Source of the DNA: a virus
Virus record (IMG/VR): IMGVR_UViG_3300012920_007653
Location: 1-20,043 of that record
Reading direction: 5' to 3' (one strand)
Length of the DNA stretch: 20,043 nt
The translations under genes were made by a program, and so were the position numbers. Below the pieces are notes generated by a model. The model ran no database searches. It was given only the letters and a program-made list of their open reading frames with translations, and was not told where the DNA came from. Position 1 is the stretch's first letter. Each line of letters starts with the position of its first letter. Below are positions 4,384 to 20,043 of the stretch, piece after piece.

Positions 4384-4490
4384 TGAAGTTCACATATAGG
4401 AATAAAAATCGCAATCTAGTTCTTAAGAAACGTCTTAGGAACTATTTTGTGTTTCTCGTTATTGGTATTTTGATAGGAGTTACAATATGA
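4383..4490 (+). CDS. Small single-pass membrane protein, 35 residues
   Basis: The ATG at 4383 overlaps the preceding stop (TAATG) and the TGA at 4488-4490 overlaps the next start (ATGA), so it is coupled on both sides, which is strong evidence for a real gene despite its size. The first 20 residues carry a high positive charge (Lys/Arg-rich, RNKNR and KKRLR), followed by a hydrophobic run from about residue 21 to the end (YFVFLVIGILIGVTI). By the positive-inside rule the N-terminus should be cytoplasmic. Function unknown; a host-membrane effector or a membrane anchor for the neighbouring proteins is possible. Confidence 0.6.
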   Translation: MKFTYRNKNRNLVLKKRLRNYFVFLVIGILIGVTI

Positions 4491-5608
4491 ACAATCTTGT
4501 CCTTCAAAAACTTTTGCATGGCTATCAATTAATTACACCGAATGAAGCAAATTTTGGTGAAACAGAAACTAAGAAGGTTGATAGTTTTGAATATACTGCC
4601 TTGAAAGAACAGAATAAATTAATTAGTTCTTTTGACAGAAAATGGGTGAGTGGTTTTCACTTTGCAAGACACATCAATGATGGTACGAAACTTAATCCAA
4701 GAGGTGATCATTGGCTTAGAAATGATTTTACTGATGAAAATGGTATTGCCAAAGAGAGGGTTAGTATTTGTCCAAAGATGTTGCATGACGTGATGAAAAT
4801 GTATTCAAGAACTGTAACTCAAGCAGGCAAGTTTTACATTAATGAACAAGCCAATAACTGTGTAACAGCAGAAGAGACTAAAGCTCTTGTGAATGAAATA
4901 AAGTTTTTTGCACCATATCAAAACACCTTTCTGCAAGTGGAAGATGAACATATGATTGGAAATATTCTTGTTACTGATGGAATTGAAAGCAGTGGTGTCG
5001 TAAAAGAAGATAAAAAATCAAATGGTGATTTCAAAGATGTTGATGCTACCACTCTGCATATGACCATGAATATTTATTTTAAAGGAGAAAATAAAGTAAT
5101 TTTAGACCCCAACATCTATGAGGTTGCATTTTCAGATGGTAGTTATGGTTTCAAAGTAATCAATTCAAAATTCAGAAGTATGACTGACGTCAGAATGACT
5201 GATGATGGAAACTTTGAAAACGAAGATTTGAATGAATGGGTTTATAAAATGGTGAACTACTATTTTAAATTTATGGTTTATTTACAGTTTCCACAGATTT
5301 GTGATGTACAAAAAAGGCAAGGTCGTAGTAATGATAACTGGTATGACATACCCACTAAATATTCTACAAGCCACCTGAGAAAAAAACCTAAGTTTGAGCA
5401 TAAAGAACTTGTTATCAATATGTTTGGAGATTCTAGTTCTAGCAATGTTAATCCTCTTGCGAATGGTAATACAGGGGGAACAGCATTCCATAGTGTTAGA
5501 AAGCATTTAAGACGTTTGCCTAATGGAAAAATGACTTGGGTAAAAGCACACTTTAGAGGTTCTAAAAGTGCAGGTATAATAACCAAAGATTATAGGATAG
5601 AAGAATGA
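4487..5608 (+). CDS. Unknown 373-residue protein with basic C-terminal motif
   Basis: The largest gene of this operon, starting at an ATG eight bases after AGGAG and overlapping its neighbours at both ends (ATGA junctions). I do not recognise the bulk of it. It has no membrane segment and no obvious nucleotide-binding loop. The last 40 residues are strikingly basic: HSVRKHLRRL, a GKMTWVK segment and HFRGSK, followed by an acidic tip. Similar H-x-V-R-x-H-x-R ... G-K-x-x-W-V endings occur in unassigned phage and plasmid proteins, from memory. A nucleic-acid-binding role is plausible but unproven. Confidence 0.72.
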   Translation: MNNLVLQKLLHGYQLITPNEANFGETETKKVDSFEYTALKEQNKLISSFDRKWVSGFHFARHINDGTKLNPRGDHWLRNDFTDENGIAKERVSICPKMLHDVMKMYSRTVTQAGKFYINEQANNCVTAEETKALVNEIKFFAPYQNTFLQVEDEHMIGNILVTDGIESSGVVKEDKKSNGDFKDVDATTLHMTMNIYFKGENKVILDPNIYEVAFSDGSYGFKVINSKFRSMTDVRMTDDGNFENEDLNEWVYKMVNYYFKFMVYLQFPQICDVQKRQGRSNDNWYDIPTKYSTSHLRKKPKFEHKELVINMFGDSSSSNVNPLANGNTGGTAFHSVRKHLRRLPNGKMTWVKAHFRGSKSAGIITKDYRIEE

Positions 5609-5799
5609 CTTTGAAAGAATATATACAAGATATTTTAGAAGCAGTAGACGAGCAAGAGGTTGATCAATGGCTCTCAGACTTACGTCAAGTAGCTGAGAAA
5701 CATAATCTTTCTCCATTTCAAGTAATGATTGATCTCTTGCAATTTAAACAAAGAGAAGAACGTGATGCTTATTACCAAGATAAGCACAACATTCACTAA
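5605..5799 (+). CDS. Unknown 64-residue helical protein
   Basis: Last gene of the operon, beginning inside the stop of the previous one (ATGA). It is short, highly charged and likely all-helical (LKEYIQDILEAVDEQEVDQWL). No family recognised. Its stop (5797-5799) interlocks with the stop of the opposing gene at 5796-5798, with no terminator between the two convergent operons. Confidence 0.6.
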   Translation: MTLKEYIQDILEAVDEQEVDQWLSDLRQVAEKHNLSPFQVMIDLLQFKQREERDAYYQDKHNIH

Positions 5800-6332
5800 T
5801 CAAAACTTCTCTTGCCATCATCAGGCACCCAACCTTGACTGAATTCGGAATCACTTCCCTTTTCAGTCATAGGTCGGTAATCATATAGACGATCAATTTC
5901 TTCTTGTTCCATTCCTAAGAATTCTTTTATTTGATCATCAGACCATTCGTGTTTTTCTTTAAGGTCTCTAACAATGTCAGTCATTGGTAAAATTAAATGA
6001 TTACCTCTAGCCCTATTATGTACAATTGTTGCGGCTTTCTGTTCTGCTAAATCTATTTCATCAGATAGAAATACAACTGGAACCATGCCATCTGTAAGTT
6101 CAAATATTTCATCGTCCCCTGAGACTGTCCATCTATGAAAACCATCAACTATTTCTTTGTTAGACCTAGCAACTATAGGTTGTGTCCAACCACAAAGTTT
6201 GATTGATGTCTTAAGCAGATCAAGTTCTATCGGTGAAACCTTATTGGGGTTATAGTCATTTGCTTTCAATTCAGTTCGGTTGACCCATTGAAATGTATTT
6301 ATCGGTTGTTTTTCTTTGCCTTTATTTGCCAT
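5796..6332 (-). CDS. ParB/Srx-like protein, IbrB-like partner of the PP-loop gene
   Basis: 178 residues from the ATG at 6330-6332. An ATG 18 bases upstream is in frame, but AGGAGA sits between the two, so the downstream codon is preferred. Residues about 12-110 carry the ParB N-terminal-type fold: NPNKV (28-32), the GFHRW phosphate-binding motif (64-68) and NRARG (106-110). The C-terminal third is charged (WSDDQIKEFLG, EEIDRLY). It overlaps the preceding PP-loop gene by 11 bases. An IbrA-family PP-loop protein immediately followed by a ParB-like IbrB is a known pair; IbrA/IbrB of Escherichia coli raise expression of immunoglobulin-binding genes, and the biochemistry is not settled as far as I know. 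Some ParB-fold proteins bind or hydrolyse nucleotides; activity here is unknown. Confidence 0.82.
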   Translation of the reverse strand: MANKGKEKQPINTFQWVNRTELKANDYNPNKVSPIELDLLKTSIKLCGWTQPIVARSNKEIVDGFHRWTVSGDDEIFELTDGMVPVVFLSDEIDLAEQKAATIVHNRARGNHLILPMTDIVRDLKEKHEWSDDQIKEFLGMEQEEIDRLYDYRPMTEKGSDSEFSQGWVPDDGKRSFD

Positions 6333-7536
6333 TAAATCTCTCCTTATCATAAAGTCTTTTCATGTTTTTTATAGTTTGTGGATCAGTTGAAAAACTTGGT
6401 GACTTTCTGTCTTTGAAATCACCGCGCATTGCTATTCTTAAAAGGAACTGCCAACTCATGCCTGTGTGATAATGTGGGTTTTCTAATATAGGGTCAGATG
6501 TTTTACTCTTATGCCATTTTATCCAATGCTGTATCTTTTCAGCAATGAGTGACCTATATGGGTTTGGGTGTTTCATAACGTAATATTTTATGTAGTCTAG
6601 CCACTCAATATCATCAGGTTTTTTTGGCACACCATTAAATGCATAAAGTTCTGTGTTGGCATATCTTGCAGCAGTTGCAGAACCTTCAACTCTGCTTTGC
6701 ATCTTATCCCAAATATCAGGGAAAGCAATTGAATACTGCCACAAGCCCCTCATTGGTTCTTCTCCATATGGTGGAGCACACCTTTGTTGCAAATGAGTAA
6801 GACCAAGTTTTTCTAAGATGTCATATGTTGTGTTGTAATCCCAATTGTAAAGATGAGGTGCAGTCCATACATCAACTGTTTTCATATCATATATTGGACA
6901 TACTTTCCAAACATTAGCTAAAGCTGTTTTGCTTTTCAAAGGTATCATGTATGGTTCATATCTTTTGCCATGCCCTGTTTGCAGAATTGTTCGGTATCTC
7001 GTTAATGATTCTTCTGATCTTATGCCCATAATGACACCAACTTCTCCAACTTTTTCAGGTGGAAATAAAAGTCCGTTACATTCTGGAACAGCTGGTCTTT
7101 TATCAATATCTATTGGGAACATGTCAATATCTTCCCATGTAATTACTGATTCATGCTTAGGCATGGGCCTTACCCATTTATCTATATCTTCTGGTGCCCA
7201 AGGAAACCAATAAGGTTGCTTTCTACTACAACCATTCCTATGTTTTATTGGAACGCACAACCAATGCATATTGACTTCAGGCAAGTTGGCTACCCTTTCT
7301 ACATAATCAATAGTTTCATATGGAATTGCTTCTTCATCAAAAAAGTAAACATCTAATGGTAATTTATTTCTTTCTTTGGCAACCTGTAAAGTAAGGTTCA
7401 GACAGACAGTTGAGTCCTTGCCACCTGAAAACATAACAACAACAGAATCAAATATGTCATAAGTTCTGTTAATTCTTTCAAGCGCTAAATCATAGACGTT
7501 TTGATCAATTGTTCTTTTTTTATGTACTTTGCTCAT
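6322..7536 (-). CDS. PP-loop / PAPS-reductase-family protein, IbrA-like
   Basis: 404 residues. The ATP-pyrophosphatase loop SGGKDS is at 37-42 after a hydrophobic strand, and the family arginine motif GIRSEES...R at 171-180; a PIYDMKTVDVW segment follows at about 214-224. The C-terminal part (RCAPPYGEEP near 252, RVEGSATAARY near 282-292) matches the IbrA/DUF3440-type extension rather than a plain assimilatory reductase. The ECGxH-type C-terminal catalytic cysteine of true PAPS reductases is absent, so sulfate reduction is unlikely; adenylation-type chemistry, as in DndC and tRNA thiolases, fits the motif better. AGAGGA precedes the ATG at 7534-7536. It sits between the cupin and the ParB gene it overlaps. 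Confidence 0.88.
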   Translation of the reverse strand: MSKVHKKRTIDQNVYDLALERINRTYDIFDSVVVMFSGGKDSTVCLNLTLQVAKERNKLPLDVYFFDEEAIPYETIDYVERVANLPEVNMHWLCVPIKHRNGCSRKQPYWFPWAPEDIDKWVRPMPKHESVITWEDIDMFPIDIDKRPAVPECNGLLFPPEKVGEVGVIMGIRSEESLTRYRTILQTGHGKRYEPYMIPLKSKTALANVWKVCPIYDMKTVDVWTAPHLYNWDYNTTYDILEKLGLTHLQQRCAPPYGEEPMRGLWQYSIAFPDIWDKMQSRVEGSATAARYANTELYAFNGVPKKPDDIEWLDYIKYYVMKHPNPYRSLIAEKIQHWIKWHKSKTSDPILENPHYHTGMSWQFLLRIAMRGDFKDRKSPSFSTDPQTIKNMKRLYDKERFNGK

Positions 7537-7603
7537 TTTTTTGTCCTCTGACTTGCCCTCTAAGAGCTTTTTTGTGTGCTAGGAATACCCTAACACCCCC
7601 CAT
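7520..7603 (-). CDS. Possible 27-residue ORF bridging cupin and PP-loop genes
   Basis: The ATG at 7601-7603 begins two bases after the cupin stop, preceded by AAAAGG at a suitable distance, and the ORF ends inside the first codons of the PP-loop gene (17-base overlap). The peptide is basic (FLAHKKALRGQVRGQKNEQ). It closes the only real gap in the cassette. It may be a genuine small protein or just a coupling leader; size alone cannot decide. Confidence 0.4.
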   Translation of the reverse strand: MGGVRVFLAHKKALRGQVRGQKNEQST

Positions 7604-7605
7604 AT

Positions 7606-8292
7606 TTAGCCTTTTCCATGATCAATGTAAGTTCTATTGAGCATTGGGTGATTAGTGTCTGTAGGCCCAAAATCACTATCAGGGTGATATGCAATTATAT
7701 CCATAAAGTTTTCAGATGTTCTAAAGCTATGAACTTCTCCTTCCTCTAAACAAAACATTCTGCCCTTCACTAAATCTTTTTCCCAACCCTCTCTTTTACC
7801 ATCAGGTTTTTGAAATGCTTCACCTTTTCCGTCAATAACAATGCCCATTCTTATGCTTGGGTGTAAATGTTGTGTTTGATCTATGCCCATTGGAAAGTGC
7901 AGATAGTTTAGACAAGGGTCGCCTAATCTTGGTGGCATAATTAAAAGTGAATCTGTACAACCGTCAATATAGGAAAGCCTACCTCTTTTTTCTGATTTAC
8001 CAACTAGATCAATTCCTTGAAAACCATATCTTTTTATTAAAAACATTTTTGAATCCAAAGAATTTGACCAGATTGTAAAAGGTGTTTTCAGACTAAAGAA
8101 ACTACCTTCTGTAATGATGTAAGTGTCTTTACCTTTTTCTATTGTAAAAACACCGTCAGTTACAAAACCATAAGCATTGTTTGCTGTGTCAGAAACAGTA
8201 AAGTCACCCTCAATACAAGTCATATCTGTAGGGTACATAGTTTCAGTTTGATCTATTTTGTCTCCGTGTTTAGGGTTATCAATCAGAATCAA
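7606..8292 (-). CDS. Bicupin-like protein in the ParB/PP-loop cassette
   Basis: 228 residues with two cupin-like halves. The N-terminal half (about 40-75) has the strand pattern of a cupin barrel (GFVTDGVFTIEKG, then EGSFFSLKTPF) but no metal ligands. The C-terminal half has the metal-site pattern: H142-x-H144 in QHLHPS, GIVIDGKGEA, then LEEGEVHSF with H188 in the motif 2 position. The usual motif 1 glutamate is not present (Arg/Met there), so the site is a three-histidine type or divergent. Cupins include dioxygenases, isomerases and small-molecule sensors; the substrate cannot be read from sequence. Its start overlaps the stop of the preceding ParB gene by 14 bases, tying it to the cassette. 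Confidence 0.72.
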   Translation of the reverse strand: MILIDNPKHGDKIDQTETMYPTDMTCIEGDFTVSDTANNAYGFVTDGVFTIEKGKDTYIITEGSFFSLKTPFTIWSNSLDSKMFLIKRYGFQGIDLVGKSEKRGRLSYIDGCTDSLLIMPPRLGDPCLNYLHFPMGIDQTQHLHPSIRMGIVIDGKGEAFQKPDGKREGWEKDLVKGRMFCLEEGEVHSFRTSENFMDIIAYHPDSDFGPTDTNHPMLNRTYIDHGKG

Positions 8293-8878
8293 TTTTATAT
8301 CTCCTTACAAGCTCCATCAGAGCCTGTGTTTTAGTATCTAAGTGTAAATCTCTACGAATGATTTCTATGCAGTCCATAACTGCTTTTCTTTCTTCTTCTT
8401 CCATGTAAAAAATTAATGGCACTTGGTTTGTCAGTTCTTTTGCAGAATAACCAGCTTCGTCTAGTTTTATATCTTTATCTATTAAATCATCAAACGAATC
8501 AAAGGCATCATCATCTTGAAAATTAAAACCAGCGACTTCTATTTCCAAATCTTCTAGTTTTTTTAATTCTTGTTTTAGAAAATTATCTTCCCATTGTGTA
8601 AGTTCACCAACCTTATTGTCTGCTAATCTGTATGCATCAATTTTTTCTTGTGTATCGTCATAGACAAGACAAGGAACTTCTTTCATGCCTAGTGATTTAC
8701 AAGCCAGTAATCTTGTGTGACCAGCAATAATAATATTATTTTTATCAATAGAAATAACTTGTCTCATGCCATGATTCTTTATTGATTTGGCACATTCTTC
8801 TATAGCTTTATCAGATATAATTCTTGGGTTCTGATAATAGGGAATAAGGTCATCTACATTTTTGCTAACTACTTCCAT
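8279..8878 (-). CDS. ParB-like protein, first gene of the cassette
   Basis: 199 residues. The N-terminal ParB/Srx domain shows YQNPR (15-19), SIKNHGMRQVI (32-42) and the GHTRLLAC motif (53-60), followed by YRLADNKVGELTQWE (83-97). The last segment is typical of ParB domains found fused to or beside phage DNA methyltransferases; no methyltransferase is present here. The C-terminal region is acidic then helical (MDCIEIIRRDLHLDT). It is distinct from the second ParB protein at 5796-6332. The ATG (8876-8878) has no Shine-Dalgarno sequence but lies eight bases after a -10-like box and overlaps operator copy 2. Confidence 0.86.
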   Translation of the reverse strand: MEVVSKNVDDLIPYYQNPRIISDKAIEECAKSIKNHGMRQVISIDKNNIIIAGHTRLLACKSLGMKEVPCLVYDDTQEKIDAYRLADNKVGELTQWEDNFLKQELKKLEDLEIEVAGFNFQDDDAFDSFDDLIDKDIKLDEAGYSAKELTNQVPLIFYMEEEERKAVMDCIEIIRRDLHLDTKTQALMELVRRYKIDSD

Positions 8879-13814: not shown

Positions 13815-14654
13815 ATGACATTTGATACCAAAAGAAAGTTCGGAGTAGAAGTAGAGTTCTTATCTGAATATCAAAGCCAAAGACAAGTAGTTAATTTGGT
13901 AAATTCGTATTTAACTAATCATGATGCTGATTTCAGAATGGAATATGCATATTATAGTGACACATCTAATGCTTGGAGAATCAAGTCTGATTCAAGTGTG
14001 TCAGGCAATTATTCTCATGGTTTAGAATTGGTCACACCTGTTCTACATGGAACAAGAGATTATGAAAGATTAATGCTTGTGCTTGATGCTATCAACAACA
14101 TTGATGGAATTACTGTAAACAGAACTTGTGGTTTACACGTTCATGTTGGTGTAGAAAATTGGGAAGTGAGCAACTTCAAAAATCTTGTTAAAAGATATGC
14201 TAAGTTTGAAAAGGCTTTAGATTCAGTTATGCCAAATTCAAGAAGAAGAAGCAATGGTTCTTATTGTGAATCAAACTTTTCTCATTCTTATACTTTGAAA
14301 AACATCTACAAAGAAATTGACAAACAAAAAACAATAAGACAATTGACTGATGAATGTGCTCATTCAAGATACACAAAACTTAATTTACAAAGTTTTTGGA
14401 AACACGGAACAGTTGAATTCAGACATCACAGTGGTACAACCAATCCTGATAAAATTAGTAATTGGTTAAAAGTTTGTTTAGCAATGTGTGAAGCTGGTGA
14501 CACAAAAAGAATTGTCAAGGTTGATCAAGACTCTAACCTTCAAGTAAACAACTACACATTACAAGTTTTCTTTAACGGACTTGCTAAAGCTAGTGATCTT
14601 ATTACTACCGATTTAAGACTTTTCTATAACAGAAGAGCGAGGAGTGTTGCATGA
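13815..14654 (+). CDS. Amidoligase-family enzyme (COOH-NH2 ligase)
   Basis: 279 residues with the Amidoligase_2-type, glutamine-synthetase-like core: FGVEVEF (9-15, E12 and E14 as metal ligands), W-R-I-K-S-DSSV (54-62), GLELVTP (69-75), TCGLHVHV (104-111) and RYTKLNLQSFWKHGTVEFRH (185-204, written in parts: R185, N190, E201, R203). The family joins a carboxylate to an amine using ATP, in peptide tagging or small-metabolite synthesis. AGGAG lies eight bases before the ATG. The stop overlaps the following 82-residue gene (ATGA), and a gamma-glutamylcyclotransferase-like gene follows, a combination described for phage amidoligase operons. The natural substrate is unknown. Confidence 0.86.
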   Translation: MTFDTKRKFGVEVEFLSEYQSQRQVVNLVNSYLTNHDADFRMEYAYYSDTSNAWRIKSDSSVSGNYSHGLELVTPVLHGTRDYERLMLVLDAINNIDGITVNRTCGLHVHVGVENWEVSNFKNLVKRYAKFEKALDSVMPNSRRRSNGSYCESNFSHSYTLKNIYKEIDKQKTIRQLTDECAHSRYTKLNLQSFWKHGTVEFRHHSGTTNPDKISNWLKVCLAMCEAGDTKRIVKVDQDSNLQVNNYTLQVFFNGLAKASDLITTDLRLFYNRRARSVA

Positions 14655-14899
14655 AGCAACTAAGGTATCAAATGGTGGGGGATTCGTCCCCCCTCCTCGG
14701 TCTCACTAAAGATGATATTGCTAGAGAGATTTATGATCGTTCATTCATTTATGCTTTCACACATCAATCATTTGACGAGTGGATGTCATCAACTAAAAGA
14801 AGAATCAATATTCAATTTGGTATTGAAATGATTTACGAGGATTCAGACCAGTTCGTAGATCAATTAGAAAAACATGGTCTAATTAGGAGATATGAGTAA
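14651..14899 (+). CDS. Unknown 82-residue protein between amidoligase and cyclotransferase
   Basis: Coupled to both neighbours (ATGA at its start, TAATG at its end), with AGGAG eight bases upstream. After a distinct N-terminal segment there is a helical body (KDDIAREIYDRSFIYAFTHQSF, in two helices) with aromatic residues, ending HGLIRRYE. Codons 9-14 are encoded by a GC-rich hairpin, the strongest structure in this AT-rich region. No family recognised. It could be a substrate or adaptor of the amidoligase (speculation). Confidence 0.62.
   Translation: MKQLRYQMVGDSSPLLGLTKDDIAREIYDRSFIYAFTHQSFDEWMSSTKRRINIQFGIEMIYEDSDQFVDQLEKHGLIRRYE
14677..14692 (+). promoter_or_regulatory. GC-rich hairpin early in the 82-residue gene
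   Basis: GGGGGA, TTCG, TCCCCC forms a perfect 6-bp stem with a four-base loop, about 26 bases after the start codon and inside the coding frame. No T-tract follows, so it is not a terminator. A structure here could slow ribosomes or stabilise the message; the role is inferred. Confidence 0.5.
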
Positions 14900-15348
14900 T
14901 GTTGTATTTTGCTTATGGTGCTAACTTGAACAAAGAAGGTATGGAAAGAAGATGTCCAAATGCTGTTCCAGTTGGCAAGTTTATTATGCCTAATCACCAG
15001 TTGGTGTTTAAGGGAGTTGCCGATATTGAAGAACAAGATGGTTCTTTTGTAGAGGGTGTGTTATGGGATATTACCGATGAGTGTGAAAAAGCTCTTGATC
15101 GCTTTGAAGGTTATCCATATTTGTATATTAAAAAATTACATTGGAAAGAATGTAATGGATATGCTGAACCAGTCATGTTTTACGTAATGAGAAAGAGTGA
15201 GTTGAGTTCACCAAGTCAAGGTTATGTTGACTGCATTAGACAAGGTTACAAAGACTTTGACCTTGATGAAAGATGTCTTGATTATGCTCTCAAGCATACA
15301 GAAAAGAATGATAGCGGTGTAAAGCACTATTCAGTTCAATGGGGTTGA
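14899..15348 (+). CDS. Gamma-glutamylcyclotransferase-like (GGCT/AIG2 fold) protein
   Basis: 149 residues. It begins with the family phosphate-loop signature FAYGANL (4-10); the catalytic acid/base is E70 in the LDRFEGYP motif, followed by the usual Y-x-x-K segment and a later GYVDCIRQGY helix. GGCT enzymes release 5-oxoproline from gamma-glutamyl amides, so beside an amidoligase it may reverse, proofread or complete gamma-glutamyl-type linkages. This pairing has been noted in amidoligase operons of phages and bacteria. All key residues are present. The start overlaps the preceding stop (TAATG). Confidence 0.84.
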   Translation: MLYFAYGANLNKEGMERRCPNAVPVGKFIMPNHQLVFKGVADIEEQDGSFVEGVLWDITDECEKALDRFEGYPYLYIKKLHWKECNGYAEPVMFYVMRKSELSSPSQGYVDCIRQGYKDFDLDERCLDYALKHTEKNDSGVKHYSVQWG

Positions 15349-16258: not shown

Positions 16259-16361
16259 TTTTGTTTTTATTCTTAAAAATCTTATCCCAATTTTGGTTTA
16301 TCTTTTGTCTGTTTTCTTTTCTTCTTTTATCGCCTTTGCCACCTACATATTGATCTGACAT
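16233..16361 (-). CDS. Small basic 42-residue protein after the endolysin
   Basis: The ATG at 16359-16361 shares one base with the endolysin stop (TAATG). The product starts MSDQYVGGKGDKRR and continues with a lysine/asparagine-rich helix (QKINQNWDKIFKNK). Short proteins of this kind (Gly-rich start, then R-x-E-N and NWDxI) occur near lysis genes in other marine phages, from memory. Function unknown. Overlaps at both ends support it being translated. Confidence 0.58.
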   Translation of the reverse strand: MSDQYVGGKGDKRRKENRQKINQNWDKIFKNKNKNGTKQNTN

Positions 16362-16810
16362 TAGACTTCACTCCAATCTTTGCCTTCAAATAAAAGTGCT
16401 TCTGCTTCTCTCCTACGAACAAGACCTTCTAAAACTTCACCATTAGCCTTATTCCACCTTTTAATTTCATGTGGCACATCTTCGTATAACCCAGAATTCA
16501 ACTTGGAAAGTAACGTACTCTGAACAAGGTTTGTAGGGCCTAAATTGTAGCACCATGCTACAAGACTTGAGAATTGATTTTCATTAAGAGGCACATCAAC
16601 AAGATCAGAAACGTATTCTTCATATTCTTCTAACTCAATATCTAACATTTCTTCAGCATGATCTTGAGACCATACATCACCCTCTTTCACTCCTTTGGTA
16701 AATCCAAAACCGATTGTCCAAACTCCTGCTGGACATTTGTATGCTTCTAATTCGCAACCTTCAAACTTTTTAATGAGAGCTTTGCCCTCTTCTGATATTT
16801 TCATTTCCAT
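16361..16810 (-). CDS. Endolysin, GH24 lysozyme (T4/P1 type)
   Basis: 149 residues. The catalytic pattern E17-x8-C26-x5-T32 is in FEGCELEAY, then K-C-P-A-G and VWTIGFGFT; the usual Asp is replaced by Cys as in several phage endolysins. The conserved FSSLVAWCYNLG helix and the C-terminal GLVRRREAEALLF motif complete the fold. It cleaves the glycan strands of peptidoglycan at lysis. There is no signal or anchor segment, so it must rely on a holin to reach the wall, and holin candidates lie upstream in the same operon. The start overlaps the nuclease stop by ten bases; Met3 is an alternative start. Confidence 0.93.
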   Translation of the reverse strand: MEMKISEEGKALIKKFEGCELEAYKCPAGVWTIGFGFTKGVKEGDVWSQDHAEEMLDIELEEYEEYVSDLVDVPLNENQFSSLVAWCYNLGPTNLVQSTLLSKLNSGLYEDVPHEIKRWNKANGEVLEGLVRRREAEALLFEGKDWSEV

Positions 16811-17194: not shown

Positions 17195-17362
17195 TTATTT
17201 ATCCTTTGCTTTGTAAACATTTAAAGCCAACAAATCTATTAGGCCATAAATCTTACCAAGAAATTCATTATCTTTAGGTGTAGGTGTAATCATAGCTATA
17301 AAACTTGCAACAAAAACAACCATTGAAACAATGCCGAATATATCAATTATTATTGAGAACAT
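17195..17362 (-). CDS. Small membrane protein, 55 residues, lysis operon
   Basis: The ATG at 17360-17362 follows AGGAG by six bases, and the stop lies one base before the SNase start. Residues about 3-25 form one hydrophobic span (IIIDIFGIVSMVVFVASFIAMI), followed by TPTPKD (26-31) and an amphipathic C-terminal helix (GKIYGLIDLLALNVYKAKDK, in part). The span then TPTPKD then ALN pattern recurs in small phage proteins near lysis genes, from memory. Could be a second holin, antiholin or spanin-like part; the sequence does not decide. Confidence 0.68.
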   Translation of the reverse strand: MFSIIIDIFGIVSMVVFVASFIAMITPTPKDNEFLGKIYGLIDLLALNVYKAKDK

Positions 17363-17406: not shown

Positions 17407-17880
17407 TTAGTCTTTGGAAGAATTAGATGCACCGAAGTAAAAAGAGATGATTGCACTAGCAAGACCACCAAGATAGCCAAGGACTAGATTAATAAGTGCT
17501 TCTGAGTTTTGTTCTGGTGGTTGTAAAGTAACTAAAAATATATAACCGAGAAAGCCACCGATGGTAGCAATACCAATAATTCGTGCAGTCCAATCTTTAG
17601 AAAAATGTTTTCTAGCATCTTGTTTTTCTTGAGCTTCAAGAGCAAAAATATCAACTTCTAGTTCTTTCATTTGTTTATCAAACTCAGCTTCAGCTTTTTT
17701 GATTTGTGCTAATTGCTCTGGTGTTGCTGTTTGTATTGCCTGTTCTATAGACTTTTGATTGTTTGGAACTCCTAGTGTTTGAGACAGAATTTTTCCTGCC
17801 ATACCACCCATAGGGCCACCAAGTGCTGTACCTATTGTTGGGGCGACTGCACCTAAAAGATTTTTTAGCATATTCTTCAT
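17407..17880 (-). CDS. 3TM holin, GTA type
   Basis: 157 residues with the layout of the gene-transfer-agent release holin family: a glycine-rich hydrophobic N-terminal region (about 9-38, LGAVAPTIGTALGGPMGG), a charged coiled middle (about 55-95), then two membrane spans at about 100-119 (RIIGIATIGGFLGYIFLVTL) and 129-150. It should open the inner membrane for the endolysin. It begins one base after the stop of the cyclase gene, so the two are probably made together. A 44-base gap separates it from the small membrane gene. Confidence 0.82.
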   Translation of the reverse strand: MKNMLKNLLGAVAPTIGTALGGPMGGMAGKILSQTLGVPNNQKSIEQAIQTATPEQLAQIKKAEAEFDKQMKELEVDIFALEAQEKQDARKHFSKDWTARIIGIATIGGFLGYIFLVTLQPPEQNSEALINLVLGYLGGLASAIISFYFGASNSSKD

Positions 17881-17881
17881 A

Positions 17882-19618
17882 TCAATTGAATGTATAAATA
17901 TTTACAGGTTTGCTTTTTCCTTTGACCATAATAGCATCTAATTTCAGCAATTCAAAAGAGCAATTCTTTTTGGTTTCCTCTCCTATCAAAACATCAACCA
18001 TTTTTTCTTTCGTATTAGATTCAAGCCTTGCACATAAATTTACGGAATCACCTAAACTTGTAAATTCAAATCTGTCATCTGACCCCATGTTTCCGACTGT
18101 TGCATATCCAGTATTAATACCAATACCGATTTTTATTGCAGGTAATTTTTCTTTTATTAACTCTTTATTCAAAGTTTCCATATTAATAATAATTTCTTTT
18201 GCAGTTTTGAGAGCTAAGTCCTGATGTTTTTCTACATCTAATGGAGCATTCCAACAAGCCATCATTGCATCACCTATATACTTATCAACCATACCTTCAT
18301 TAGACTTAACTGCATTAGCTTGTACTGTAAGAGCTTTGTTCATTAGGTACGTTACTTTTTCAGGTTCTAACTGTTCAGACATGCTGGTAAAACCTCTGAC
18401 ATCTGTAAACATATGGGGGCAGTAGCTTTTTTCTCCACCTAGCTTTAGTAACTGTGGATTGTCTTGTAGTCTTTTAACTTGTCTTGGATCAAGATAATGC
18501 TCAAACTGTTTCTTGATTTGTTGTCTTAGTTTGTATTGTTGCCTGAATCGTAAATAAAAACTTGTACTTGCAATTATAAATTGTCCAATAAGAGACCATG
18601 TTACATCTATTAATATTCCTTGTTTTATTGTCCAATAGCCATAAAGACCTGTAGAAAACATAACAAATCCACCCATAGTAAGACTAAGGGTAAGCCCAAA
18701 AGATTGTGTTAGAAGCCAAATAAGAAGCCCTGATAATATAAAAATTAGCAATTCTAGCGATAAATACCAATTTGGTATGTATGGACTGTTTTCAATTAAA
18801 ATACTTTCAGCTAAAGCAGTTTGAATTTTATGAGGCTCCAAAAGACCGACAGGTGTAGAAATCGTGGGCATTATTCCTGAAGCTGTAAAACCTACAAAGA
18901 CAAACTTATCTTTGACATCTAATTCTTTTAAATTTGTTTCAGATGTTTCTACCCAACTCACCCACTTTCGTCCTAAACTGTCCACCCTTGTTTGTGGTAA
19001 ACCTTGTACTTTTATCTCTTCAATACCTAGTTCATTTGTTTTTATGATATAAGTATCAGCACCAACTAATACTTTCAATACTTCTACAGCATATGACGAA
19101 ACCCAACCATTAGGAGTTTGATATAACAGAGGTATTTGTCTAACAAGATTATCTACGTCTACAGGTGAAGAAGCTAAACCTTCATTTGTACTTGATCTTA
19201 ATGGTTCAACATTATTTATTGTGCCTTTAATAAAATTGGTTTTTACATCTTCACCCAATATTACTGTTCCGACTGTCTGTGGATAAATGCCATTCTCATA
19301 TTCAAAGATAGATAAAACAGAATTAGTTTGACCAAGCACTTCTGCAAAAATATCATCACCACCTAATCTATCTTTGTGTGGCATAGCTAAAACCCAACCA
19401 ACACCCAAAGCACCTGCATTGATGATTTCTGCATGAATTTTAGCTAGTTCTAATCTTGGTATTGGATAACCCCCTTGATCATCAACAAACTTTTCATCAA
19501 GATTTATGACAGTAAAATATCCTGATTCTTGATACTCAGGCACAAAATAATCAAAGGTTCTTAACTTGATAAGCTGTTGATAACTATGTTGGAAAAGTAG
19601 AGGTATAGCTAAAACCAA
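17882..19618 (-). CDS. CHASE2-domain class III adenylate cyclase
   Basis: 578 residues: an extracytoplasmic CHASE2 sensor (about 15-275, with VFVGFTASGI at 240-249 and TPVGLLEPHKIQ at 255-266), three membrane spans (about 286-303, 309-328, 337-356), a short coiled linker and a cyclase domain from about 400. The catalytic set is complete: metal Asp406 in FTDVRGF and Asp450 in KYIGDAM, adenine-selecting Lys446 and Thr520, transition-state Asn527 and Arg531. It should therefore make cAMP from ATP. The start is a TTG at 19616-19618; the frame stays open upstream and would extend the N-terminal span (LFPYILVLVL), so the true start may be a non-standard codon nearby. It sits directly before the holin. 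Confidence 0.92.
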   Translation of the reverse strand: MVLAIPLLFQHSYQQLIKLRTFDYFVPEYQESGYFTVINLDEKFVDDQGGYPIPRLELAKIHAEIINAGALGVGWVLAMPHKDRLGGDDIFAEVLGQTNSVLSIFEYENGIYPQTVGTVILGEDVKTNFIKGTINNVEPLRSSTNEGLASSPVDVDNLVRQIPLLYQTPNGWVSSYAVEVLKVLVGADTYIIKTNELGIEEIKVQGLPQTRVDSLGRKWVSWVETSETNLKELDVKDKFVFVGFTASGIMPTISTPVGLLEPHKIQTALAESILIENSPYIPNWYLSLELLIFILSGLLIWLLTQSFGLTLSLTMGGFVMFSTGLYGYWTIKQGILIDVTWSLIGQFIIASTSFYLRFRQQYKLRQQIKKQFEHYLDPRQVKRLQDNPQLLKLGGEKSYCPHMFTDVRGFTSMSEQLEPEKVTYLMNKALTVQANAVKSNEGMVDKYIGDAMMACWNAPLDVEKHQDLALKTAKEIIINMETLNKELIKEKLPAIKIGIGINTGYATVGNMGSDDRFEFTSLGDSVNLCARLESNTKEKMVDVLIGEETKKNCSFELLKLDAIMVKGKSKPVNIYTFN

Positions 19619-19647
19619 AACTAATATGTATGGAAATAATTTACTAA

Positions 19648-20043
19648 TTAATCCTGTGTAATTCTTATTACTGATGAACTTCCCCCATTTACTTTTACTA
19701 TTCTTGAAATGCCATCTTGAATAAATATTACTGTATAAGAACCATCAACATTCAGGTCAACTCTAGCAAAGTTAGAAACTTGTCTTTGTAAGGTAACAGT
19801 ACCACCAGTAATGAAAGATGTTATTTGTGTATCTTGATCTTGTCCTAGTTGAGTGCCTGAAATAACTGTAGAAGTAACATCTTGTAAAGCATCTTCTTCT
19901 TCACCGAATTCATCAATTATTTGCAATAAATCCTCAAGAAAGTTTGTATCAAGAGCATCATAATCTAGCTCAGTAAACTCTAAGGAATCTTTCTCAAGCT
20001 CGTCCTCTGCTAAGTAGTCTATATCTAATTCATTAAAATCTAA
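19648..20043 (-). CDS. Acidic protein, C-terminal part (partial, enters from right edge)
   Basis: The frame is open from the window edge to a TAA at 19648-19650 (131 residues seen); a TTG at 19926 is not needed as a start because the frame continues upstream. The first 55 residues are extremely acidic and contain two related blocks about 20 residues apart (FNELDIDYLAED and FTELDYDALDTN). The C-terminal 65 residues are beta-rich (GTVTLQRQVSNF, DGSYTVIFIQDGISRIVKV). Not recognised. It lies immediately upstream of the cyclase. FecR-like proteins often neighbour CHASE2 cyclases in bacteria, but no FecR motif is visible in this fragment. Confidence 0.65.
   Translation of the reverse strand, partial: LDFNELDIDYLAEDELEKDSLEFTELDYDALDTNFLEDLLQIIDEFGEEEDALQDVTSTVISGTQLGQDQDTQITSFITGGTVTLQRQVSNFARVDLNVDGSYTVIFIQDGISRIVKVNGGSSSVIRITQD

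Follow-up and report, generated by a model that had tools for sequence, protein, structure and literature searches.

A CHASE2 adenylate cyclase behind FecR in a probable phage curli cassette, a candidate envelope sensor

A phage gene for a membrane-bound receptor cyclase that ends one base before a putative holin gene raises the question of which phage function it serves: lysis, as its downstream neighbours suggest, or something encoded upstream of it. It would be notable if phages steered infected cells with second messengers of their own making that act on the host. The gene lies in a stretch of 20,043 bases that makes up the whole of IMG/VR record IMGVR_UViG_3300012920_007653 and is apparently a fragment (hereafter, the window).

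A membrane sensor cyclase in phage DNA

Matches to Pfam and PHROG place portal, terminase-subunit, primase–helicase, ERF recombinase and endolysin/lysozyme genes on the window together with small phage genes, which identifies the contig as phage DNA. The GC content is uniform (0.342 overall and 0.334 in the cyclase gene). Host DNA at the cyclase locus, a possibility raised by an earlier sequence-only reading, is ruled out by the phage genes found throughout and by hundreds of viral relatives. A tRNA scan found no tRNA within the window, and a promoter scan of the cyclase region returned fewer sites than in shuffled sequences and was uninformative. The features of the locus are as follows.

17882..19648, minus strand: CHASE2 adenylate cyclase, likely full extent, 588 aa, from an ATT start overlapping the FecR stop (the earlier TTG start is at 19618)
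18725..19615, minus strand: CHASE2 periplasmic sensor domain (Pfam PF05226, E 5e-23; well ordered in the model)
18500..18766, minus strand: three C-terminal membrane helices and the helix leading into the cyclase domain (model helices 285–306, 309–332 and 340–373; hydropathy)
17894..18412, minus strand: class III cyclase catalytic domain with D406, K446, D450, T520, N527 and R531 (PF00211, E 4e-18; conservation in viral relatives; CyaC structure match)
19648..20043, minus strand: FecR-domain protein, C-terminal 131 aa, cut by the contig end (phrog_37870, E 3e-8)
17407..17880, minus strand: 157-aa small membrane protein, putative holin (phrog_1544, E 7e-25, function unknown; two clear spans; adjoins an endolysin in many relatives)
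17195..17362, minus strand: 55-aa one-span protein, conserved at the same place in relatives L002 and L003
16801..17220, minus strand: Staphylococcal-nuclease-like protein (PF00565, E 3e-7)
16361..16810, minus strand: phage lysozyme (endolysin; PF00959, E 1e-45; phrog_7 endolysin)

The open reading frame at 17882–19618 (minus strand) is intact. Its product matches CHASE2 (E 5e-23, residues 2–298) and Guanylate_cyc (E 4e-18, residues 403–575), both well above the Pfam cut-offs, and phrog_35576 over nearly its whole length; an NCBIfam search gave no useful name. The six residues that had been picked out from the sequence as catalytic or adenine-selecting are all where they were said to be, and they supply the class III set of two metal-binding Asp, an adenine-selecting Lys with Thr/Asp, and a transition-state Asn and Arg. 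Across 84 aligned viral sequences (one row of which, L084, is probably bacterial), D406, K446, D450 and R531 are invariant (84/84), N527 is kept in 83, with the single change in phage Melnitz, and position 520 is T in 63, S in 20 and D in one; the homologues thus show no decay of the catalytic residues. The AlphaFold model has a mean pLDDT of 88, and its catalytic domain matches that of the Spirulina adenylate cyclase CyaC (PDB 1WC1; about 31% identity) with a TM-score of 0.88 by target length, although the 1WC1 structure comprises only the soluble catalytic part and has no CHASE2 sensor.

The protein has the layout of a CHASE2 receptor, with an N-terminal span, an extracytoplasmic CHASE2 domain, three further spans and a cytoplasmic output, and the first span is whole only with an ATT start. 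A periplasmic sensor with three membrane spans had been proposed; the receptor layout stands, but the TTG start at 19618 truncates the first membrane helix, and four spans are likelier. In 60 of 70 relatives the cyclase start lies inside the FecR stop codon (a four-base ATGA or one-base TAATG overlap). At this point the window and L002 read TAATT and L003 reads TAATA, in frame with the cyclase. Because relatives start at this overlap, because the resulting 588 aa agrees with the length in most of them (about 580–596 aa) and because the first span is completed, the true start is probably the non-AUG ATT at 19648, 30 bases upstream of the TTG, giving a protein of 588 aa with four spans. Taken together, domains, fold and residues point to a real membrane sensor enzyme that is apparently active and predicted to make cAMP.

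The curli cassette and its FecR protein

A FecR gene lies directly upstream of the cyclase, and the window contig ends inside it, leaving the C-terminal fragment at 19648–20043. The genes past this end can be seen in the nearest long relative (L003, cyclase 73% identity), in which the order is CsgF (PF10614, E 2e-14), CsgG (PF03783, E 3e-45), a curlin-like gene, FecR (PF04773, E 9e-11), cyclase, putative holin, nuclease and lysozyme. The full-length FecR of this relative matches phrog_37870 at 4e-65, the same PHROG as the window's fragment. The order CsgF–CsgG–curlin–FecR–cyclase, with or without a second curlin, recurs in almost every IMG/VR relative whose sequence extends far enough, and at least 595 cyclase loci were found in IMG/VR viral contigs. 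By this comparison of gene order, the window cyclase is probably the last gene of such a cassette, which the contig end interrupts. In the L003 cyclase (4724–6457), the catalytic half is visibly less window-like than the CHASE2 half by pairwise alignment, which suggests domain swapping between phages.

A cassette of this type has already been published: Wittmers et al. 2022 (PMC9599517) found a type VIII secretion (T8SS, curli) module that includes FecR and an adenylate cyclase in Pelagibacter myoviruses and podoviruses. The window gene therefore probably belongs to the described pelagiphage module, to which we add comparative detail. The published order, CsgF–CsgG–CsgA/B–FecR–(CsgA/B)–AC, is represented by the Pelagibacter phage HTVC008M and the OM43 phage Melnitz, both of which carry CsgF, CsgG, curlin, FecR, a curlin-like gene and the cyclase. 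The window cyclase is 31% identical to that of HTVC008M at 97% coverage, and the viral sequences form one clade. The window differs from the published module in two respects. Its cyclase runs into a putative holin gene, whereas the words holin, spanin, endolysin and lysozyme are absent from the main text of PMC9599517. Moreover, whereas the module was published in Myoviridae and Podoviridae, the window-type lineage points to a siphovirus. In a 47-kb record (G003) with 77% terminase identity to the window, the cassette sits between the tail genes and the lysis genes. The structural genes of this record include those for a head–tail adaptor, head closure, a tail terminator, a major tail protein and a tape measure, a set indicative of a siphovirus-like lineage; the module would then be known from a third morphotype. 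New relative to the published description are FecR as the probable partner of CHASE2, the finding that the cassette usually abuts lysis genes in window-type phages, and the many cassettes, described below, that lack the cyclase.

The published module also includes a histidine kinase (sometimes two), called short, placed before CsgF (PMC9599517). In our relatives, this place is taken by proteins of 84–116 aa that combine a predicted span with a coiled tail and match phrog_18771 (function unknown), and in three of them that were tested no kinase domain was found. By position and size, these are probably the proteins called histidine kinases in the literature. Examples of one-span coiled proteins before CsgF are L003 1254–1604 and L007 4465–5015.

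Bacterial relatives of the cyclase are mostly alphaproteobacterial, at about 30% identity. In a quick tree with composition warnings for some bacterial rows, 61 viral representatives are split from 76 bacterial ones by a single branch (SH-aLRT 98). The record behind the probably bacterial alignment row (CAKLQH020000011.1, Acinetobacter phage MD-2021a by name) looks bacterial, with mfd and isc genes at this locus; it was left out of trees and neighbour counts. Among 72 bacterial cyclase loci (932 kb), a FecR gene is immediately adjacent in 20, in 12 of them upstream on the same strand, and 14 non-adjacent FecR genes were counted; no curli genes were found near the cyclases in these loci. Since bacterial cyclases often adjoin FecR with no curli genes nearby, the two together resemble an older signalling unit of cells that would later have joined the curli export system. 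Seven bacterial partner FecR proteins were examined, and three of them, of 1300–1500 aa, carry cadherin/Ig domains, one with RTX repeats as well, which suggests secreted adhesins. A similar pairing is known from the Burkholderia BiofilmReg operon (PMC5192318), in which a secreted LysM/FecR protein is encoded with a CHASE2 receptor, although there the output is a histidine kinase, whereas in the window it is a cyclase behind a curli pore. The FecR protein of the phage cassette is probably a partner of the CHASE2 cyclase and not an iron regulator.

A proposed envelope-sensing arm

The sequence and architecture of the cyclase, its intact and conserved active site, the gene order, the single viral clade and the optional presence of the gene (see below) lead us to lean towards a reading in which the cyclase is the signalling arm of the phage curli cassette, an optional FecR–CHASE2 envelope sensor. 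From these observations we infer cAMP production, FecR–CHASE2 contact, a ligand, a receptor and a benefit as follows. Periplasmic FecR and the inner-membrane cyclase would form a receptor pair, with CHASE2 sensing either FecR itself or the state of its periplasmic cargo. The signal would cross the membrane helices to a dimeric cyclase domain, and cAMP would rise in the infected cell. By analogy with bacterial FecR neighbours and with Sinorhizobium, the likeliest signal would be the state of the surface fibre or of the CsgG/CsgF export pore. Acting on a host cAMP receptor, the messenger may then alter host physiology or surface state late in infection.

The closest functional parallel is in Sinorhizobium meliloti, in which CyaD1, CyaD2 and CyaK act with NsrA and the regulator Clr. 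These CHASE2 cyclases are reported to raise cAMP when a protein signal arrives through the outer-membrane barrel NsrA (PMC13001267, PMC7529298), and CyaD1 without its CHASE2 domain makes cAMP constitutively (PMC5498481). The likeness to the window lies in a CHASE2 sensor joined to a class III cyclase and in an envelope signal leading to cAMP. The Sinorhizobium enzymes differ in being cellular, in responding to a plant-derived protein and in having a known cAMP receptor, and the passages on these enzymes report no curli cassette. Among 21 phage records, including ones of 147 and 152 kb, we found no cNMP-binding protein, so any cAMP output must act through a host receptor. Proteins of this kind are present in two 1.4-Mb marine genomes among the relatives (an uncultured alphaproteobacterium and SAR86), so streamlined marine bacteria can carry such receptors; the literature on SAR11 and CRP held nothing decisive.

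Optional presence, lysis neighbours and other readings

The cyclase is not a fixed part of the cassette. In G010, a record with 76% terminase identity to the window, FecR runs straight into spanin genes. Among 214 FecR genes with a classifiable downstream side, pooled from all samples and including searches from CsgG and from the G010 FecR (loci not picked by cyclase similarity), the cyclase comes next in 148, and in 66 spanins or a holin do so with no cyclase between, a ratio that reflects the queries and is therefore not a frequency. A quick FecR tree requires at least three changes in cyclase presence. By this comparison, the cyclase is an optional part of the cassette, and a cleanly placed one. 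Because the 66 cassettes keep the curli genes and FecR, the cyclase is not essential to the curli genes; because they also keep spanin or holin genes, it is not needed for lysis in those phages. These many otherwise matching cassettes are ready-made natural controls.

Such clean presence and absence at one place would also be expected if the end of the late operon were a hotspot that tolerates cargo, with cAMP serving general reprogramming, aggregation or superinfection control and neither lysis nor curli specifically. The differing lysis genes downstream and the spread of one viral clade across phage lineages are consistent with this. By contrast, the overlap of the cyclase start with the FecR stop suggests co-translation and not loose cargo, and the constant place of the cyclase after FecR speaks for a functional link between the two. 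Counting against such a link, the cyclase follows FecR only to a moderate degree within window-type phages, with a distance correlation of 0.50, as against 0.85 for FecR with CsgG. On balance, we consider a cargo hotspot unlikely, though worth keeping in view.

The sequence-only reading had placed the cyclase one base before a three-span holin in a lysis operon. The one-base gap is correct (TGA-T-ATG), but the three-span description of the holin did not hold. The neighbouring protein (17407..17880) has two clear spans and a weak glycine-rich one by hydropathy, its best match is phrog_1544 (function unknown), and a Pfam search gave no holin match. An assignment to GTA_holin_3TM (PF11351) was rejected, there being no Pfam match and no alignment by hhalign (E 0.21), so that holin function is putative and comes from context.

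That context recurs. By hand count, a lysis-type gene is next after the cyclase in 71 of 76 close relatives (those among L002–L081 with at least 600 bases downstream, a census biased to window-like sequences because the best 80 matches were used); the exceptions are L033, L039, L041, L054 and L080. The 166 viral cyclases fall into 61 clusters at 80% identity, so the census is not merely one of copies. The downstream genes, which often overlap or abut the cyclase stop, come in at least three kinds that are unrelated to one another: Rz-like spanin pairs (phrog_739, phrog_812), phrog_1544-type proteins usually with a lysozyme, and genuine GTA_holin_3TM proteins accompanied by an M15 or lysozyme endolysin. 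The two holin-like families are unrelated to each other, and in one relative a nuclease and a lysozyme come next.

This adjacency favours a reading in which the cyclase senses the late envelope or energy state and cAMP times or permits lysis. In further support, one pre-CsgF one-span protein weakly matches the holin family phrog_4898 (4e-5), and Buchholz et al. (PMC9004378) suggest that CsgGF takes part in lysis in Melnitz. Against it, the same kinds of lysis genes are kept in the 66 cassettes without the cyclase, no lysis gene follows the cyclase in pelagimyophages (HTVC008M-type phages), and no route from cAMP to a holin is known. Thus, the adjacency claimed earlier stands as a frequent association with unrelated gene kinds, but primary membership of a lysis operon is not supported, given the tie to FecR and curli, the pelagimyophages and the cyclase-free cassettes. 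The last of these weaken lysis timing in particular, and we think it improbable. A full trans-envelope relay in marine phages, from curli pore and fibre through FecR and the CHASE2 cyclase to cAMP, would couple phage amyloid export to the lysis decision. If true, it would explain the repeated placement against non-homologous lysis genes, yet we rate it as quite improbable. Two HTVC008M-type contigs (L139 and L150) have a spanin pair immediately ahead of the cassette.

The apparent drift of the window's start codon from ATG to ATT might suggest a non-catalytic or decaying gene. Set against this, the residues are intact and dN/dS between the window and L002 is 0.106. The median over 46 non-overlapping close pairs is 0.093, with 0.052 in the catalytic part, which supports purifying selection on the cyclase and makes decay very unlikely. 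A Pycsar-like defence or superinfection system in which the cyclase makes cCMP or cUMP is scarcely credible, because the match to the PADLOC PycC model (E 1e-27) is expected for many class III cyclases, the adenine-selecting Lys and Thr/Ser are conserved (K446 in 84/84) and downstream neighbours are not homologous across relatives; membership was rejected, as neither of the two neighbours tested matched an effector model. The preferred reading thus remains that of an optional FecR–CHASE2 sensor serving the curli cassette.

Elsewhere in the window, a 373-aa open reading frame at 4487–5608 (plus strand) has no Pfam or PHROG match. At 5796–8878, a PAPS-reductase/DUF3440 protein and a cupin protein are flanked by two ParB-like proteins, a cluster that we take to resemble IbrA/IbrB-type phage genes. 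At 13815–15348, an Amidoligase_2 gene is followed by one small gene and then a gamma-glutamyl cyclotransferase (GGACT) gene; the two enzymes may act as a pair in peptide modification.
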